Made by a program: the position numbers and the translations under genes
The notes under the pieces: model-generated
What the model was told of the DNA's origin: nothing
The model's input: the letters and a program-made list of their open reading frames with translations, nothing else
Databases searched by the model: none
DNA from: an uncultured Alphaproteobacteria bacterium
GTDB lineage: Bacteria > Pseudomonadota > Alphaproteobacteria > UBA8366 > JADFVY01
NCBI GenBank assembly: GCA_947259795.1
Contig: CAMYNJ010000145.1
Coordinates: forward strand, 1 to 41,275
Direction: 5' to 3'
DNA length: 41,275 nucleotides
Shown: positions 1,307 to 12,470 of the stretch, in pieces
Layout: each line of letters begins with the position of its first letter
How positions within the stretch are numbered: position 1 is the stretch's first letter

Positions 1307-1382
1307 AACCACCCGGCAGCGACAATGCCTGTTATCGGCGATGACGGAACAACAGCATTATAATTTCGCCGTAAGCACCTGT

Positions 1383-2111
1383 TTATCCTTTTAATACCCG
1401 CCACAGCCCCCGCGGATGGAAGCCGCGCGAAATCAGCTTCCAGGCCACCATACGGATGATCCGCGATACGTCGCGCACGGGATGGAGATGGCTGGGGCGC
1501 ACCAGGGTTCCCGCGTAGAGCGCCGGAATCGGCGTTGAAATACTGCGCACACCCACCCTCGCGGCCTCGATCAGGATTTCGCTTTCGAAAACGAAGCCGC
1601 GCTCCGGCCCGTGCGGCACGTCGACCCGGCCAATCAGGCCGGCGGGATACAGCCTGAAGCCGCTCTGGCTGTCTTCGACACGGTAGCCGCAGGCCCAGGA
1701 AATCCAGAAATCGGCGATCCGGTTGCCGATATAACGCTCGCGCGGGAAGGCATCGCGGTCGCCGAGCCGGGATCCGATGACGATGGCCCCGGGATTGTCG
1801 CGTGCGCAGGCCAGAAGCAGCGCAAGGTCTTCCGGCCGGTGCTGTCCGTCGCCATCCATTGTTGCGACGATGTCGGCGCCAAGTTCGACGGCGCGCCGCA
1901 AGCCTCTCGCAAGGCTCGCAGCCTTGCCGGCATTTGCCTCGTTGCGCAGCAGTTCGACGGGATACCGCCGCACGATCGCCGCCGTATCGTCCGTGGACCC
2001 GTCGTCGATTACGATCACTTCGCCGTCCACCTGCAGACAACGCTCGATCACATCGCCGATGGTCGCAGCCTCGTTATAGGCGGGAATGACAATAATGACC
2101 TTGGGCGTCAT
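1383..2111 (-). CDS. Glycosyltransferase family 2 (polyprenyl-phosphate glycosyltransferase-like)
   Basis: KVIIVIPAYNEAATIGDVIERCL...VIVIDDGSTDDTAAIVRR...DIVATMDGDGQHRPEDL: GT2 motifs. Confidence 0.9.
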   Translation of the reverse strand: MTPKVIIVIPAYNEAATIGDVIERCLQVDGEVIVIDDGSTDDTAAIVRRYPVELLRNEANAGKAASLARGLRRAVELGADIVATMDGDGQHRPEDLALLLACARDNPGAIVIGSRLGDRDAFPRERYIGNRIADFWISWACGYRVEDSQSGFRLYPAGLIGRVDVPHGPERGFVFESEILIEAARVGVRSISTPIPALYAGTLVRPSHLHPVRDVSRIIRMVAWKLISRGFHPRGLWRVLKG

Positions 2112-2306
2112 GAAGTTTTCTGTATTTCCCTATTCCTGCGATCACCGCCCCTTCGGCGAGGTTGGCAGCATAACCGATATCGGCCGGCCGTGACCCGGAA
2201 AATACCCGGTTTTCAGGCTGCGCGGCCTAATGGTAATATGTTCTTTACCCGGTCTGTCCTAAACTTTCGCCATGCTCGAGTCGACGCCGGAATTTGGGAG
2301 CGTTTC

Positions 2307-2900
2307 ATGAGACGGAAATACACGGTTTCCCTATGGATCGCGTCCGCCATCCTGGCCCTGGCCGCCTGTTCGTCACCTTCGGTGGAACAATCGGTCAGAC
2401 CGCCGCCGCCGGCCTGGTCCGGTGACACGGCCTATGCCGGTTCCGGCGCGTCAACCCCGCGGCAACCGGTCAAACCCGCCAACCCGCGCATCGTCCGGGG
2501 ATCGCCGGGCCTGCAATGCGTTCCCTATGCGCGAGAGCAATCCGGCATCCCGATCCGCGGCGACGCCTGGACCTGGTGGCATAAGGCCAAGGGCAAATAC
2601 AGCCGTTCGCAACGGCCCGCCGTGGGTGCGGTCCTGGTTGTGGGCAAGACGGCGAAAAACAAATACGGCCATCTCGCGGTGGTGACCCGCATCGTCAGCG
2701 ACCGCGAGATCGTGGTCAACCACGCCAACTGGCTGAACAAGGGCCGAATCCATCTGGATACACCAGTGCGCGACGTTTCGCGCCGCAACGACTGGTCGGC
2801 GGTGCGGTTCTGGTATACGCCCGGCAATGTGCTGGGCAAGAGCACCTACCCGGTCGACGGATTCATTTACCCCAGGGGCACCGTCGCCACGAGCGGTTAA
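2307..2900 (+). CDS. CHAP-domain lipoprotein (putative amidase/endopeptidase)
   Basis: Lipobox LALAACSS; QCVPYAREQSGIPIRGDAWTWWHKAKGKYSRSQRPAVGAVLVVGKTAKNKYGHLAVVTRI...NHANW matches the CHAP Cys/His layout. Confidence 0.8.
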   Translation: MRRKYTVSLWIASAILALAACSSPSVEQSVRPPPPAWSGDTAYAGSGASTPRQPVKPANPRIVRGSPGLQCVPYAREQSGIPIRGDAWTWWHKAKGKYSRSQRPAVGAVLVVGKTAKNKYGHLAVVTRIVSDREIVVNHANWLNKGRIHLDTPVRDVSRRNDWSAVRFWYTPGNVLGKSTYPVDGFIYPRGTVATSG

Positions 2901-3247
2901 TCCGGATCAGGGGAAGGCGCCGCCGCGGCACGGTATAGCTTGCACAACTCTACCAGCAGCTTGCGTGTTCTTTCACAGCAAAGCGAGTAGTGGATCGCCT
3001 TGCCGTCGCGCCGGGACTCGACGATGCCGTCGGCACGCAGCCGCGCCAGTTGCTGCGACACCGTAGGCTGGCGCGTTCCCGTGAGTGTTTCGATCTCGCC
3101 GACCGATTTTTCACCTTCCGCCAAAAGACAAAGTATCATAAGGCGGTTTTCATTCGCCATGGAACGAAGCAGGGTATTGGCCTCGCCGGCATTATTCCAC
3201 AACACGCCGAACCCCGACTTGCCATCGCATTCATATATGCTACTCAT
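2897..3247 (-). CDS. ArsR-family transcriptional regulator (sox-locus, BigR/SqrR-like)
   Basis: LLRSMANENRLMILCLLAEGEKSVGEIETLTGTRQPTVSQQLARLRADGIVESRRDGKAIHYSL: ArsR winged HTH. Start chosen at MSSIYE. Confidence 0.88.
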   Translation of the reverse strand: MSSIYECDGKSGFGVLWNNAGEANTLLRSMANENRLMILCLLAEGEKSVGEIETLTGTRQPTVSQQLARLRADGIVESRRDGKAIHYSLCCERTRKLLVELCKLYRAAAAPSPDPD

Positions 3248-3497
3248 TGTGCCCGTTTTCCGGCGGGTGGGACCCGCGAGCAAGTTTGCTGCAGAATCAA
3301 GCCGCCTGTCGCCCAGTAAGACATACCCGGCAACCGAAGCTGCCCGTAATCCTGCGGTATCCGCAACTCGTTTCGGTTATAATTCAACGCTCCACGCCCT
3401 CTGCGGTCTGACATCAAACGCGCAGATCGGTTTCGCTCTTATATTCATTACATATTATGTGAACGAGCCGGCAAGGTAAACCTCAGTTGCGGAAAAA

Positions 3498-3998
3498 TCA
3501 GAAATCCAGATCGTCCTGGATCGCCTCAATACCGACTTTCGCACATTCGTCGTCGGCCGGCCCACCCGGTGCGCCGGACACGCCGACGCCGCCAACGATC
3601 GATCCGGCTGCCTGCACAACGACCCCGCCGCCAACCATCATGGCCTCATCCACGAAACGCACGCCCGAGGCCTCCTTGCCGGCCTCCGTAAGCTCTGCCA
3701 TCGCCAATGTATCGGTTCGGAAACTCACGGCCGTCCAGGCCTTGCGGCGCGCTGTTTCGACGGTGTGCGCGCCGGCGTAACGGTCACGCAACATGACCTG
3801 CATGTTCCCGGACCGGTCGACCACGGCGACGGTAACCTGGTAGCCCCTGGCGCGGCAGTCCGCCAGCGCTGCCCGGGCCAGAACCAACGCGGTTTCCGGC
3901 GACAGGGTTTTATAGGAGACCAACGCCTCTTCCTCGGCCCTGGCGCCCCCGGTCATGATGCCGCTAGCAAGCAGCAATGCTATCGCCATTCTTTTCAT
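3498..3998 (-). CDS. GlcG/HbpS family heme-binding-like protein, secreted
   Basis: Signal peptide, then LVLARAALADCRARGYQVTVAVVDRSGNMQVMLRDRYAGAHTVETARRKAWTAVSFRTDT...GGGVVVQAAGSIVGGVGVSGAPGG: HbpS/GlcG fold signature. Confidence 0.85.
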   Translation of the reverse strand: MKRMAIALLLASGIMTGGARAEEEALVSYKTLSPETALVLARAALADCRARGYQVTVAVVDRSGNMQVMLRDRYAGAHTVETARRKAWTAVSFRTDTLAMAELTEAGKEASGVRFVDEAMMVGGGVVVQAAGSIVGGVGVSGAPGGPADDECAKVGIEAIQDDLDF

Positions 3999-4425
3999 CT
4001 GATGTCTCCTTGTCTGATCTTTCCGCGCATCCCGGTGCGCCAGCCTGCGTCTGACTGCCTGTCAGGTCTGTTTGGAGTTTGTCGAGCTCTATGGCCAGCA
4101 ATCCCCAGAAGAAGTCTTCACCCGGATAACCCAGGATCCGGCCCACCTCCTTGCCGTCTTCCAAGAGCACGAAGGTTGGCGTGTAATGGATACCGCGAAT
4201 ATGCGTGAGGTCTTCGGGAACGGTGTCATCCACGTCCACGCGGCGCAACGGCGCTATCCTCGCCTCTTCGGTTTTACAGTAAACGACACCGACTTCATCG
4301 TGCCAGGCCTCGCACCACTCGCAACTGTCGGATTCGAACATCACCAGTTCCGCAGACATGCTGACGCCACCACTGACTTGAACGAGCAGAATTGAAATCG
4401 CTGCCAAAAAGACTCGTTTAGACAT
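3964..4425 (-). CDS. SoxS-like periplasmic thioredoxin family protein
   Basis: Signal peptide; ELVMFESDSCEWCEAWHDEVGVVY...HIRGIHYTPTFVLLEDGKEVGRILGYPGEDFFWGLL: CxxC thioredoxin plus cis-Pro TPTF, at the sox locus. Confidence 0.8.
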   Translation of the reverse strand: MSKRVFLAAISILLVQVSGGVSMSAELVMFESDSCEWCEAWHDEVGVVYCKTEEARIAPLRRVDVDDTVPEDLTHIRGIHYTPTFVLLEDGKEVGRILGYPGEDFFWGLLAIELDKLQTDLTGSQTQAGAPGCAERSDKETSDEKNGDSIAAC

Positions 4426-4555
4426 TTTCCGGTAAATCATCCCGTTGCCGTTTGAGGACCAACATTGCGGTGCATTTCGCCCTGCCTATTGAACTATAGC
4501 CTGAAATATTGTTCCCTCACTATATATGCCTAGTGTCGCGGTGTCGGCAAAACGG

Positions 4556-4609
4556 CATATTCAACCCTATCATATTCGATCTTGATAAATCATCAAACTC
4601 GAATATGAT
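4556..4609. promoter_or_regulatory. Candidate sox operator: 41-bp near-perfect palindrome plus an extra half-site
   Basis: ATCATATTCGATCTTGATAAATCATCAAACTCGAATATGAT (4569-4609) with perfect 11-bp outer arms and TTGAT/ATCAA inner arms about one centre; additional CATATTCAA at 4556-4564. Confidence 0.65.
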
Positions 4610-4719
4610 TGATCGGATCAAGACCATAAATTGAGCGGGGATACCAGCCGGGGTGGCTGTCCCCGGCAACCGAAACAAAAGAACCCGGAGCAGACGCTGT
4701 GGGTCTATGGGAGGAAATA

Positions 4720-5193
4720 TTGAAGATCGAGAGATATGTCTTGCCCTTGCTGGGTGCAGTGGTGCTGGCGGCTGCCGGCATGTCGGTACCGGCGAATGCG
4801 GCGGCCGAAGAGCTGGTGAAATTCAGCGTCGTCGACGGCCAGAGCATTCCCGCATCTCTGACGGGGAAGCCAGGTGACCCGGTCAAAGGGCGCGAAGTGG
4901 CCATCCACCGCAAAAAGGGCAATTGCCTGGCTTGTCACACATTGCCGGCGCCGGATCAGCCCTACCACGGCGAGGTCGGCCCCGGTCTGAACGGTGTCGC
5001 CAGCCGCCTGTCGGAAGGCGAAATCCGCCTGCGGATCGTCAATCCGAAATATGCGAATCCAGCCACCATCATGCCTGCCTTCTACCGCACCGAAGGGCTG
5101 CACAGGGTGGCCAAGAAATTCCAGGGCAAACCAATGCTGACCGCCGAAGAAGTCGAGGACGTCGTCGCCTATCTGATGACGCTCAAGGAATAG
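4720..5193 (+). CDS. soxX: Sulfur oxidation c-type cytochrome SoxX
   Basis: KGNCLACHTLPAPDQPYHGEVGPGLNGVASRLSEGEIRLRIVNPKYANPATIMPAFYRTEGLHRV: SoxX. In-frame TTG at 4720 follows GGGAGGAAATA; the upstream start at 4699 is also possible. Confidence 0.93.
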   Translation: MKIERYVLPLLGAVVLAAAGMSVPANAAAEELVKFSVVDGQSIPASLTGKPGDPVKGREVAIHRKKGNCLACHTLPAPDQPYHGEVGPGLNGVASRLSEGEIRLRIVNPKYANPATIMPAFYRTEGLHRVAKKFQGKPMLTAEEVEDVVAYLMTLKE

Positions 5194-5265
5194 CAGGCAA
5201 GACGGCAACCATCAGACGAACCCGGCACACCGGGATCAAACAGGACAATAACCGAGGAAACGAAG

Positions 5266-5686
5266 ATGAGTTCGAAGGAAATGCCAAGAGAAATCAGCCG
5301 CCGGCACGTGATCGTGCTGATCGGCGCGGCCGCCGCTGCGGCCGGCATGCTGCCGCGGGTATCGCTGGCCGACAAGGCCGCGACGGACGCCGCGGTCAAG
5401 GCCGCCGGCGGCGATGGCGCGGCGGCGGGCGGCATTACGCTGGACCTGCCGCAGATCGCGGAAAACGGCAATACCGTGCCGGTCGGGGTCGAAGTCGAAA
5501 GCCCGATACCCCAATCCTGAGGTTTGCTCCATGCATTTCACACCGGCCAGCGGGGTCGCCCAGGCGTCCACCCGCATCCGCCTCGCCAAGACGCAGAATA
5601 TCGTCGCACTCGCCGAGATGAGCGACGGCAGCTTCAGGCGCGAGACGGTCGAAGTGAAAGTAACTATCGGCGGCTGCGGCGGCTGA
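5266..5686 (+). pseudogene. soxY: SoxY, disrupted by an apparent out-of-frame internal deletion
   Basis: 5266-5520 encodes the Tat signal and N-terminal half (ISRRHVIVLIG...ITLDLPQIAENGNTVPVGVEVESPI, then stop). The C-terminal half NPEVCSMHFTPASGVAQASTRIRLAKTQNIVALAEMSDGSF...VKVTIGGCGG* continues in another frame to 5686. Confidence 0.85.
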
Positions 5687-5716
5687 CCCGGAACCGGAAA
5701 ACACGGAGAATTTGAA

Positions 5717-6043
5717 ATGGCAGTAGCAAAACCCCGCGTGAAGGTGCCGAAATCGGCTTCCAAGGGGGAAATCATCGAAATCAAGAGCCTGATCTCCCAC
5801 GCGATGGAGAGTGGGCAGCGGAAAGACAAGCAAGGCAAGCCTATTCCGCGACAGATTATTAACAAGTTCGTCGTCACGTTCAACGGCAAGGAGTTCTTCA
5901 GCGCGGACTGGGCGCCCGCCGTTGCCGCGAACCCTTATATGGCCTTCCATATGCGGGCGAGCGAAAGCGGCACCATGGAGTTCACCTGGGTCGACGACGA
6001 CGGCACCAAATACACCGAGAAAAAGGACCTCAAGGTCAGCTGA
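5717..6043 (+). CDS. soxZ: Thiosulfate oxidation carrier complex protein SoxZ
   Basis: PRVKVPKSASKGEIIEIKSLISHAMESGQRKDKQGKPIPRQIINKFVVTFNGKEFFSADW: SoxZ. Confidence 0.95.
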   Translation: MAVAKPRVKVPKSASKGEIIEIKSLISHAMESGQRKDKQGKPIPRQIINKFVVTFNGKEFFSADWAPAVAANPYMAFHMRASESGTMEFTWVDDDGTKYTEKKDLKVS

Positions 6044-6097
6044 CCGGGGCCGCCGTTGAAACGAAGCAAACCTGTGGATAGGGAGGAAATATCCGGG

Positions 6098-6877
6098 ATG
6101 CGAATAATCAGACTTACAAGCGTGATGGCGGGTGCGGCCGTGGCTGCGGTCTTTTCCGTCGCCACTGTCGCCACCGGCGAGCCGAAGAGCGGTTATGACT
6201 TTGCCGAGCCCGAAACCAGGGAGATGCAGGATGACGATTTTTCCAATCCTGGCATGCTGATAGCCGATTACGGCGGCGAGCTCTGGTCCACGGCCGACGG
6301 CGAGGCCAACAAGTCCTGCGCGGATTGCCACGGCGACGCCGCGGAGTCCATGAAGGGCGTTAAGACCCGCTATCCGGCTTATTATCAGCCCTGGAGCAAG
6401 ATGATCAATCTCGAGCTGCGGATCAATGAATGCCGGGTCAACAACCAGAAAGCCAAGGCATGGAAGTACGAGTCGAAGGAAATGATCGGCCTGGCTTCCT
6501 ACATCGGCTACCAGTCCCGCGGCATGCCGATGAATGTGGATATCGGCGGCAAGGCGACGCCGTTCTTCCAGAAGGGCAAGGAGTTCTTCTACGAACGGCG
6601 CGGCCAAATGGACTTGGCCTGTTCGAATTGCCACGAGGACAATGCCGGCAACATGATCCGCGCCAATCTGCTTTCGGAAGGGCCGAGCAACGGTTTCCCC
6701 ACCTATCGCCTGAAATGGCAGGGTGTGGGCACGCTGCATCGCCGCTTCAAGGGCTGTAACGACAATATCCGTGCGACGCCCTATGAGCGGGGCTCGGACG
6801 AGTATGTCAATCTTGAGCTCTACCTCGCCTGGCGGGGCCGGGGCCTGACCGTCGAAACACCGTCGGTCAGAAACTGA
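6098..6877 (+). CDS. soxA: Sulfur oxidation c-type cytochrome SoxA (two CxxCH)
   Basis: CADCH and CSNCH heme motifs, FKGCNDNIRA active-site Cys region, LELRINECR. Start ATG at 6098 after GGGAGGA; the longer ORF begins at 6056. Confidence 0.93.
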   Translation: MRIIRLTSVMAGAAVAAVFSVATVATGEPKSGYDFAEPETREMQDDDFSNPGMLIADYGGELWSTADGEANKSCADCHGDAAESMKGVKTRYPAYYQPWSKMINLELRINECRVNNQKAKAWKYESKEMIGLASYIGYQSRGMPMNVDIGGKATPFFQKGKEFFYERRGQMDLACSNCHEDNAGNMIRANLLSEGPSNGFPTYRLKWQGVGTLHRRFKGCNDNIRATPYERGSDEYVNLELYLAWRGRGLTVETPSVRN

Positions 6878-6948: not shown

Positions 6949-8637
6949 ATGTTTACACGCCGTGATTTTTTCACCCTCGCCGCCGCGACCGCCACCCTCA
7001 TGGGGGGAGCCGGCGGGTTGGCGCGGGCCGCGGCGCAGCAAAAAATCACCCAGGACGACCTTCTCAAGTTCGACCCGGTCGGCCAGGTCACGCTGCTGCA
7101 TATTACCGATATCCACGCCCAGCTGGTCCCGATCTATTTCCGGGAACCTTCGGTCAATCTGGGCGTCGCAGAAGTCAAGGGCCTGCCGCCGCATATCACC
7201 GGCAAGGATTTCCTCAAGGAATTTTCCATTCCCGCCACGTCGCCCGAAGGCTATGCGCTGAGCAGCAATGATTTCACTGCGCTGGCGAAGAATTACGGCA
7301 AGGTTGGCGGACTCGACCGCCTGGCCACGCTGATCAAGGCGATTCGCGCGCAACGGCCGGCCAACACGCTGTTCCTCGACGGCGGCGATACCTGGCAGGG
7401 GTCCTACACCTCGCTGCAGGAAACAGGCGCCGATATGGTGCGCGCGATGAACGCCCTGGGCACGGACGCCATGACCGCCCATTGGGAATTCACGTACGGC
7501 ACCGACCGGGTCCAGGAACTGGTCGAAATGCTGGAGTTCCCCTTCCTTGCGGGCAATGTGCGCGATACCGAATGGGAGGAGCCGGTTTTCGACGGCGTCG
7601 CCTATTTCGAGCGCGGCGGTGTGAAGATCGGCGTGGTCGGCCAGGCCTTCCCCTACACGCCGGTCGCCAACCCGCGCTATATGATCCCGAGCTGGAGCTT
7701 CGGCATCCAGGAAAAGCGGGTCCAGGAACTCGTCGACGAGGCCCGCGCGGGCGGCGCCGAGCTTGTCGTCCTGCTGAGCCATAACGGCTTCGACGTCGAC
7801 CGCAAGATGGCCGGCCGTGTTACCGGAATCGACGTGATCCTGACCGGCCATACACACGACGCCCTGCCCGTGGTGCTGGAGGAAAAAGGCACGCTGCTGG
7901 TGGCTTCCGGTTCGCATGGCAAGTTCCTGTCCCGCCTCGATATCGAGGTCAAGGGCGGCAAGATGACGAATTACAATTACCGCCTGATTCCGGTCTTTTC
8001 CGACGTCATCGAACCGGATCCGGAGATCTCGGCAATCGTCAAGGGCATCCGCGAACCGCATGAGGCGGAACTGACCCGCGTGCTCGGCCGTACCGAGAGC
8101 CTGCTATACCGCCGCGGCAATTTCAACGGCACCTTCGATGATCTCATATGCCAGGCGCTGATGGAGCAACGCGACGCCCAGATCGCCCTGTCGCCCGGTT
8201 TCCGCTGGGGTGCGTCCCTGCTGCCCGGCCAGGACATCACGGTGGAAGACGTCTACAACATGACCTCGATCACCTATCCCGCCGCCTACCGCAACGAATT
8301 CACCGGCGAATTCCTGAAGGTCATTTTGGAGGACGTGGCGGACAATCTGTTCAATCCGGACCCCTATTACCAGCAGGGCGGCGACATGGTGCGCGTCGGC
8401 GGCATGTCCTATGCGATCAATCCGAACAATGCCATGGGCAGGCGCATCTCGGACATGAAGCTGATCGCCACCGGCGAGGCGATCGATCCGGCCAAGACCT
8501 ATACCGTGGCCGGCTGGGCCTCGGTCAATGAAGGCACCGAGGGCCCGCCGATCTGGGATGTGGTGAACGGCTATATCGAGGACAAGAAGGTCGTCAACGT
8601 GCCGGAGAACAAGAATATCAGAATCAGCGGCAGTTGA
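6949..8637 (+). CDS. soxB: Thiosulfohydrolase SoxB
   Basis: Tat signal TRRDFFTLAAA; LLHITDIHAQLVPIYFREPSVNLGV; FLDGGDTWQGSYTSLQETGADMVRAMNALGTDAMTAHWEFTYG; VILTGHTHDALP. Confidence 0.96.
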   Translation: MFTRRDFFTLAAATATLMGGAGGLARAAAQQKITQDDLLKFDPVGQVTLLHITDIHAQLVPIYFREPSVNLGVAEVKGLPPHITGKDFLKEFSIPATSPEGYALSSNDFTALAKNYGKVGGLDRLATLIKAIRAQRPANTLFLDGGDTWQGSYTSLQETGADMVRAMNALGTDAMTAHWEFTYGTDRVQELVEMLEFPFLAGNVRDTEWEEPVFDGVAYFERGGVKIGVVGQAFPYTPVANPRYMIPSWSFGIQEKRVQELVDEARAGGAELVVLLSHNGFDVDRKMAGRVTGIDVILTGHTHDALPVVLEEKGTLLVASGSHGKFLSRLDIEVKGGKMTNYNYRLIPVFSDVIEPDPEISAIVKGIREPHEAELTRVLGRTESLLYRRGNFNGTFDDLICQALMEQRDAQIALSPGFRWGASLLPGQDITVEDVYNMTSITYPAAYRNEFTGEFLKVILEDVADNLFNPDPYYQQGGDMVRVGGMSYAINPNNAMGRRISDMKLIATGEAIDPAKTYTVAGWASVNEGTEGPPIWDVVNGYIEDKKVVNVPENKNIRISGS

Positions 8638-8669: not shown

Positions 8670-9419
8670 ATGGTCGGTCTGGATGTTTCGTTCGGCGGCG
8701 CCTTCCTGGCCGGCCTGTTGAGTTTCCTGTCTCCCTGCATCTTGCCGCTGGTGCCGCCTTACCTTTGTTTCCTGGGCGGAGTCAGCCTGCAACAGCTGGA
8801 GGAAGGCGGGGAGGTCGACCGCGGCGCGATGCGCCGGGTTGTGCTGGCCTCGGTCGTTTTCGTCCTGGGCTTCGCCACCGTTTTCATCGCCTTCGGGGCG
8901 ACCGCCTCGTATCTCGGACAGATGCTGGCGGAAAATTTCGAAATCCTGTCCTGGATCGCCGGCGCCCTGATCGTTGTGCTTGGGCTGCATTTCCTCGGCG
9001 TTTTCCGGATCGCCCTGCTCTATCGCGAGGCCCGCTTCCATGTCGAAAGGAAGCCGGCCGGACTGATCGGCGCCTATGTCATCGGCCTGGCCTTCGCCTT
9101 CGGCTGGACTCCCTGCGTGGGACCGGTGCTGGCCGGCGTCCTGATGATCGCCGGGGCGGAGGATTCCGCCTTCCAGGGAGCCGCACTGCTGGCGGCCTAT
9201 GCGGGCGGCATCGGGGTACCCTTCATCGGCGCCGCCTTCTTCGCGCCCCTGTTCATGCGTTTCATGGCCCGTTTCCGCCGTTACCAGGGCTGGATCGAAC
9301 GCATCCTCGGCGCGCTGCTGGTGCTTACCGGTATCCTGTTCATTACGGGCGGCATCAACGATATCGGGAACTGGCTGCTGCTAACCTTCCCTGATCTGTT
9401 CGGCACCGTCATCAGATAA
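8670..9419 (+). CDS. CcdA/DsbD-type membrane thiol transporter (SoxV-like)
   Basis: FLAGLLSFLSPCILPLVPPYLCFLGG...AFAFGWTPCVGPVLAGVLMIAG: CcdA, in the sox cluster. Confidence 0.93.
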   Translation: MVGLDVSFGGAFLAGLLSFLSPCILPLVPPYLCFLGGVSLQQLEEGGEVDRGAMRRVVLASVVFVLGFATVFIAFGATASYLGQMLAENFEILSWIAGALIVVLGLHFLGVFRIALLYREARFHVERKPAGLIGAYVIGLAFAFGWTPCVGPVLAGVLMIAGAEDSAFQGAALLAAYAGGIGVPFIGAAFFAPLFMRFMARFRRYQGWIERILGALLVLTGILFITGGINDIGNWLLLTFPDLFGTVIR

Positions 9420-11169: not shown

Positions 11170-11757
11170 ATGACGATGTCCCTTTGGCGCCTGATCTCCT
11201 TGTTGCTGGTCACGCTGTATGCGCCGTCGGCGCTTGCCGACGATGATTACACGGGTCCGATCGAGACCGAGGACGGGATGTATACCGAATCCTGGTTCCT
11301 GCAGAGTTTCCTGGACCTGGCGGAAGACCTGGAGGAAGCGAATTCGCAAGGCAAGCGCTTCGTGATCATGTGGGAACTGAAGGGCTGTCCCTACTGCAAA
11401 GAAACCCATTTCGTGAATCTCGCCGACGAGGAAATCCGCCATTTCGTGCGCGAGAACTTTGTCGTCCTGCAACTCAATGTCCAGGGCTCGCGCGCGATCA
11501 CCGATTTCGACGGCGAGGAACTGGAGGAACGGGCGCTGGCCCGCAAATACGGCATCCGTTACACGCCGACCTTTCAGTTCTTCGGCGAGGACGCCGCGGC
11601 AATGGCCGATCTGGAGCCGCGCCAGCGCGAAGCCACCCGCATGTTCAACTTGTTCAAGCCGGCCCTGTTCCTGGCGACGTTCCGCTACGTACAGGAACGG
11701 GCCTATGAAACGGAAAAACTGCGCAGCTACCTGAAGCGACAGCTCAAGGACAGCTGA
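11170..11757 (+). CDS. SoxW-like thioredoxin family protein, copy 1
   Basis: Signal peptide; FVIMWELKGCPYCKETHFVNLADEEIRHFVRENFVVLQLNVQGSRAITDFDGEELEERALARKYGIRYTPTFQFFGE. Confidence 0.88.
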   Translation: MTMSLWRLISLLLVTLYAPSALADDDYTGPIETEDGMYTESWFLQSFLDLAEDLEEANSQGKRFVIMWELKGCPYCKETHFVNLADEEIRHFVRENFVVLQLNVQGSRAITDFDGEELEERALARKYGIRYTPTFQFFGEDAAAMADLEPRQREATRMFNLFKPALFLATFRYVQERAYETEKLRSYLKRQLKDS

Positions 11758-11792
11758 AACGACAAGAAATAAAATCGATGGAGAGGTTTGAA

Positions 11793-12470
11793 ATGCCTGC
11801 AATAAAACTAATCGGTCGCATGGCCTTAGCGGTGGCGCTGCTGGCCGCGGGTCCCACCCTGGCCGCCGAAACCAAGGACGGCGCAGTCAGCCTGCCGATG
11901 CCGGCGCTGGGCGACGACAGCCTGCATAAGCAGGCCTGGTTCCAGGATACCTTCCTCGACCTGAAGGAAGATCTGGCCGAGGCCAAATCCCTGGGCAAAC
12001 GCCTGGTCATCATCTGGGAACAGCGCGGCTGCCCCTACTGCAAGAAAACCCATGATCTCAATTTCCGGATTCCGCGGATCGCCAATTACGTGAAGGACAA
12101 TTTCTTCGTCCTGCAGCTCAATCTGTGGGGCGACCGCGAGGTGACGGATTTCGACGGCGAGGTTTTGTCGGAGAAAGACTTTGCCCGCAAGAACCGGGTG
12201 CTGTTTACCCCGACCTTCCAGTTCTTCCCCGAAAAGCCGGAAGAAGCCGCGGGCCAGCCGGCATGGCGGGCCGAAATCCATCGCATGCCCGGCTTTTTCT
12301 GGCCGTTCCACTTCTACTACCAGTTCCGCTATGTGAAGGAGAACGGCTATATCGAACAGCCGAGCTTCCAGCGCTGGCTGGACGGCCAGGGCGACAAGCT
12401 GCGCGAGGCGGGCATAAATGTGGAAGAAGCCCTGCACGCGGAATCGCTACATCTGCCCGAGGGATTCTGA
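11793..12470 (+). CDS. SoxW-like thioredoxin family protein, copy 2
   Basis: Signal peptide; LVIIWEQRGCPYCKKTHDLNFRIPRIANYVKDNFFVLQLNLWGDREVTDFDGEVLSEKDFARKNRVLFTPTFQFFPE; clear paralogue of the preceding ORF. Confidence 0.88.
   Translation: MPAIKLIGRMALAVALLAAGPTLAAETKDGAVSLPMPALGDDSLHKQAWFQDTFLDLKEDLAEAKSLGKRLVIIWEQRGCPYCKKTHDLNFRIPRIANYVKDNFFVLQLNLWGDREVTDFDGEVLSEKDFARKNRVLFTPTFQFFPEKPEEAAGQPAWRAEIHRMPGFFWPFHFYYQFRYVKENGYIEQPSFQRWLDGQGDKLREAGINVEEALHAESLHLPEGF

Follow-up and report, generated by a model that had tools for sequence, protein, structure and literature searches.

A soxY gene split by 47 missing nucleotides in a metagenome-type draft genome, very probably through an assembly error

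Canonical SoxY, as represented by the TIGR04488 and PF13501 models and by the Paracoccus pantotrophus protein (PDB 2ox5/2oxg), is encoded in the order soxXYZAB, starts with a twin-arginine signal and ends in GGCGG. A further type, SoxY-S3, is encoded next to an octaheme tetrathionate reductase and soxZ in lucinid symbionts, and a role outside classical thiosulfate oxidation has been suggested for it (PMC11237559). The soxY gene considered here shares the gene order, the start and the C-terminus of canonical SoxY but differs from it in lacking 47 nt, so that it lies in two frames.

The window (the whole stretch of DNA analysed, 41,275 nt) is the entire contig C145 of a metagenome-type draft of 3.04 Mb in 164 contigs, with an estimated completeness of 65.8% and contamination of 1.15%. 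The soxXYZAB genes are followed by a gene for a CcdA-type membrane protein and, further on, by two thioredoxin-like genes. The features of the cluster, with the evidence for each, are as follows.

4699..5193, plus strand: soxX, c-type cytochrome subunit, intact (TIGR04485, 85.4 bits, cut-off 61)
5266..5520, plus strand: 5' part of soxY, 84 aa, with the Tat-type signal and the first SoxY strands (ORF; PF13501; five-relative alignment)
5507..5508, plus strand: soxY junction, 47 nt missing compared with every relative (alignments; repeat search)
5508..5686, plus strand: 3' part of soxY, from NPEV to the GGCGG C-terminus, in the other frame (PF13501; TIGR04488)
5717..6043, plus strand: soxZ, intact (TIGR04490, 112 bits, cut-off 76)
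6098..6877, plus strand: soxA, intact (TIGR04484, 250 bits, cut-off 110)
6949..8637, plus strand: soxB, intact (TIGR04486, 848 bits, cut-off 550)
8670..9419, plus strand: CcdA/DsbD-type transmembrane protein of the sox cluster, intact (PF02683; same neighbour in the same-family genomes G005 and G006)

All of soxX, soxZ, soxA and soxB, which the preliminary description had taken to be intact, indeed score above their NCBIfam cut-offs; soxY does not. A soxC gene was not found, a negative result of little weight in a draft that is 66% complete. The adjacent thioredoxin-like genes (11170-12470; PF13098; 195 and 230 aa) probably form a tandem pair, and are also found in G005 and G006.

The two parts of soxY

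The reading frame of soxY (5266-5686) is broken into two parts. The first begins at ATG 5266 with a Tat-type start (ISRRHVIVLIG), is out of frame beyond codon 81 and terminates at 5518-5520 as an ORF of 84 residues. The second reads NPEVCSMHFTP...VKVTIGGCGG up to the stop at 5684-5686. On the Pfam SoxY model PF13501, the 5' half covers positions 11-41 and the 3' half positions 57-112 (64.5 bits), the middle being absent. The 3' half matches positions 93-149 of TIGR04488, and the scores of the two halves with this model are 44.7 and 72.1 bits at a cut-off of 125. The location between soxX and soxZ, the twin-arginine signal EISRRHVIVLIGAAAAAAG in the 5' half (RR is invariant among seven SoxY) and, in the 3' half, the arm VKVTIGGCGG, whose cysteine binds sulfur, are those expected of SoxY; the signal, the complete domain and the arm are, however, not on a single polypeptide. 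The preliminary description had placed the signal and the cysteine arm on separate polypeptides, in two frames with a segment missing between them, and the ORFs, the PF13501 halves and the alignment with five relatives agree with it.

These relatives were three genomes of the same genus (G001, G002 and G003) and two of the same family (G005 and G006). The closest genome examined, G001, has 82% DNA identity and belongs to a different species. Each of the five has a single open soxY (468 nt in G001). Alignment with these genes, a check that had been called for at the outset, shows that the window is short of exactly 47 nt between 5507 and 5508, the other gaps being only small differences in leader length. 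The earlier expectation that the missing length is congruent to 2 modulo 3 thus holds, but the estimate of 53 or 56 nt was slightly high. In a 5.4-kb DNA alignment of window positions 1336-6689 with G001, this is the only gap in the window longer than 7 nt.

In the codon numbering of the G001 gene, the missing piece starts at base 3 of codon 81 and ends at base 1 of codon 97. It encodes about 15 residues (TAGNYVKTVHLFAEG), namely 82-96 of the G001 protein, and takes with it parts of 81 and 97. Since it holds a predicted strand (87-94; the model is of modest confidence, with mean pLDDT 65 and about 75 in the domain) as well as positions that are invariant among seven SoxY, a normal domain could not be regained by a shift of frame alone. 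The solved SoxY 2ox5, to chain Y of which the intact G001 ortholog is matched with E = 8e-27, has residues corresponding to the lost segment.

Neither the window nor G001 has a direct repeat of at least 8 nt on the two sides of the missing piece, and slippage between direct repeats was therefore rejected. A fold that stalls sequencing or replication was rejected as well, given that shuffled versions of the G001 segment fold at least as well. Relative to G001, dN/dS equals 0.12 for the 5' part and 0.18 for the 3' part of soxY, 0.17 for soxX and 0.12 for soxZ. As the soxY parts resemble soxX and soxZ, nothing indicates that constraint has been relaxed, although relaxation after a very recent event would escape notice. 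The values exclude an old pseudogene; they are compatible with an artefact and also with an event that is very recent.

Silent deletions in other genes of the draft

The first hint that soxY is not a single case came from the octaheme cytochrome gene adjoining the only other SoxY-like gene of the draft, which has a frameshifting loss compared with G005 and G006. A genome-wide comparison then addressed whether the same kind of break occurs in other draft genes: 853 kb of the draft and 1.22 Mb of the same-family genome G005 were compared gene by gene in both directions. Many apparent frame changes stemmed from stop-to-stop ORFs extending into neighbours or from antisense ORFs, and were dropped where the half was better accounted for by a different reference ORF. 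Almost all internal stops in the aligned genes lie in such ORF extensions, and we claim no nonsense-mutation rate. An unflagged frame change of 4 nt on contig C12 (7190-7202) was left out of the count.

Silent frameshifting deletions, 47-169 nt long and unmarked by N, were found in 5 of 320 conserved draft genes (303 kb aligned), each on a different contig.

C145: soxY, 47 nt
C149, L047:11268-11277: octaheme cytochrome (TIGR04315), 169 nt; whole in G005 and G006
C5, L069:9817-9835: O-acetylhomoserine sulfhydrylase, 94 nt; intact in G003 and G004
C12, L076:5201-5210: rlmN, 115 nt; intact in G002, G003, G007 and G008
C57, L161:16521-16524: presumably an SDR-type oxidoreductase (our own reading of the sequence), 130 nt compared with G005

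In the reverse direction, none of 333 genes of G005 has a silent frameshifting deletion relative to the draft; G005 is likewise a draft, and the stretches of it that entered the comparison include 93 N runs. Statistical support for the difference is modest (Fisher p = 0.028). The five broken genes belong to unrelated functions; one of them, rlmN, is a nearly universal housekeeping gene. Hence the draft silently breaks about one conserved gene in 64 by losses of 47-169 nt, and claims of gene loss or pathway completeness made from this genome need read support.

Visible joins in the draft point to the same weakness. The 853 kb contain eight N runs of 16-80 positions, two of which lie inside comparable genes. 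Measured against G005, the run of 23 N (L078:4911-4933) is 19 nt too short, and that of 65 N (L153:9925-9989) is 62 nt too short. Since the measurable runs are too short, the lengths of joins in this draft are unreliable. Joins of the same sort lacking N would explain all five deletions; the soxY junction, in contrast to the visible joins, contains no N. A literature search for a described case of scaffold losses without N yielded nothing directly usable.

Explanations of the gap

We consider it highly probable that the 47 nt of soxY were lost in the draft assembly and not in the organism. Two sequence pieces would have been joined with a loss of bases, the join being left unmarked by N, whereas the organism itself would most likely have an ordinary intact soxY in its soxXYZAB cluster. 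The product of such a gene would be exported by the Tat system, carrying SoxZ and the sulfur intermediate, the latter on the cysteine of the C-terminal GGCGG. The gap, its absence from all relatives examined and deletions of the same class in four unrelated draft genes are observed directly. An assembly error was only one of several options in the preliminary description; it is singled out here because of the relatives and of the genome-wide comparison, with its four unrelated genes including rlmN. Read literally, the contig would describe a sulfur oxidizer without its sulfur carrier; a broken soxY is most likely not a real feature of the organism.

A real recent deletion is unlikely. The lineage or a subpopulation would then have lost 47 nt of soxY and hence its sulfur carrier in the periplasm. 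SoxZ, which lacks a signal peptide and relies on SoxY to be exported, would be stranded too, and soxX, soxZ, soxA and soxB would be leftovers yet to decay. The contig shows the gap unambiguously and without N, and a real 47-nt deletion in a population would look identical in this single contig. The low dN/dS in both halves is also compatible with a very recent event. The earlier suggestion of a recent loss of function retains a low probability, below that of an assembly error. However, such an explanation needs four more real frameshifting deletions of similar size, in unrelated genes including rlmN, within the sampled part of the genome. Moreover, it finds no flanking repeat at the junction, and the other genes of the sox cluster are whole and evolve under normal constraint.

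The preliminary description also proposed a second soxY elsewhere. The draft does contain a divergent paralog on contig C149, in a row of genes (L047:10072-13511) for an octaheme cytochrome, a SoxY-like protein, a SoxZ-like protein and a protein with three rhodanese domains. The row, including the SoxY-like protein, is conserved in G005. This protein was rejected as a spare canonical SoxY: it ends in GGGGCG and scores 87 bits, below the true-SoxY cut-off of 125, and a 'SoxY-related' model scores better. A second GGCGG SoxY was not found in the 66% complete draft, an observation that in itself would suit a real deletion. It is very doubtful that the only GGCGG SoxY has really been broken with soxXZAB intact, the divergent SoxYZ of C149 serving SoxAX and SoxB as the carrier. 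In two same-genus genomes a fused SoxYZ-like protein is encoded (G001, L045:855-1640; G002, L046:1195-1809); none was found in the draft.

Equally improbable is a mixture of strains, in which the contig joins two slightly different haplotypes and the gap is a chimera rather than a simple loss at a scaffold join. The source of the draft is of the metagenome type, and a chimera could likewise produce a blunt join, but in practice its meaning would be that of the assembly error, namely an artefact.

That the split gene is functional is scarcely conceivable, whether as two polypeptides, the second starting at ATG 5531, or through a +1 shift at ATA CCC C before the stop to give one shortened SoxY. 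Both are formal possibilities only: CCC-C is a run at which +1 slippage is known in principle, and such a step would carry the reading into the downstream frame as ...ESPIP-NPEV... Against this, no relative has such an arrangement, and the frameshifted product would still lack residues 82-96, with the predicted strand 87-94 of the modest-confidence model and the invariant positions. Expression from ATG 5531, as suggested earlier, finds no support: the same-genus relatives have a codon for Ile or Leu, not Met, at this position, the GAGG preceding it, remarked on before, is ordinary coding sequence of the Pro-Glu-Val stretch, and the product would have no Tat signal and could not bring the cysteine arm to the periplasm.

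Comparison with described systems

The SoxY-like protein of C149 has a gene setting similar to that of SoxY-S3 (PMC11237559). The strand affected in the window gene is missing from no relative and from no solved SoxY. Compared with silent deletions at joins in draft assemblies, the soxY site, a probable join, differs in carrying no N mark; it resembles them in the blunt loss of tens to hundreds of bases, in the unrelated genes affected and in the misjudged N gaps of the same draft.
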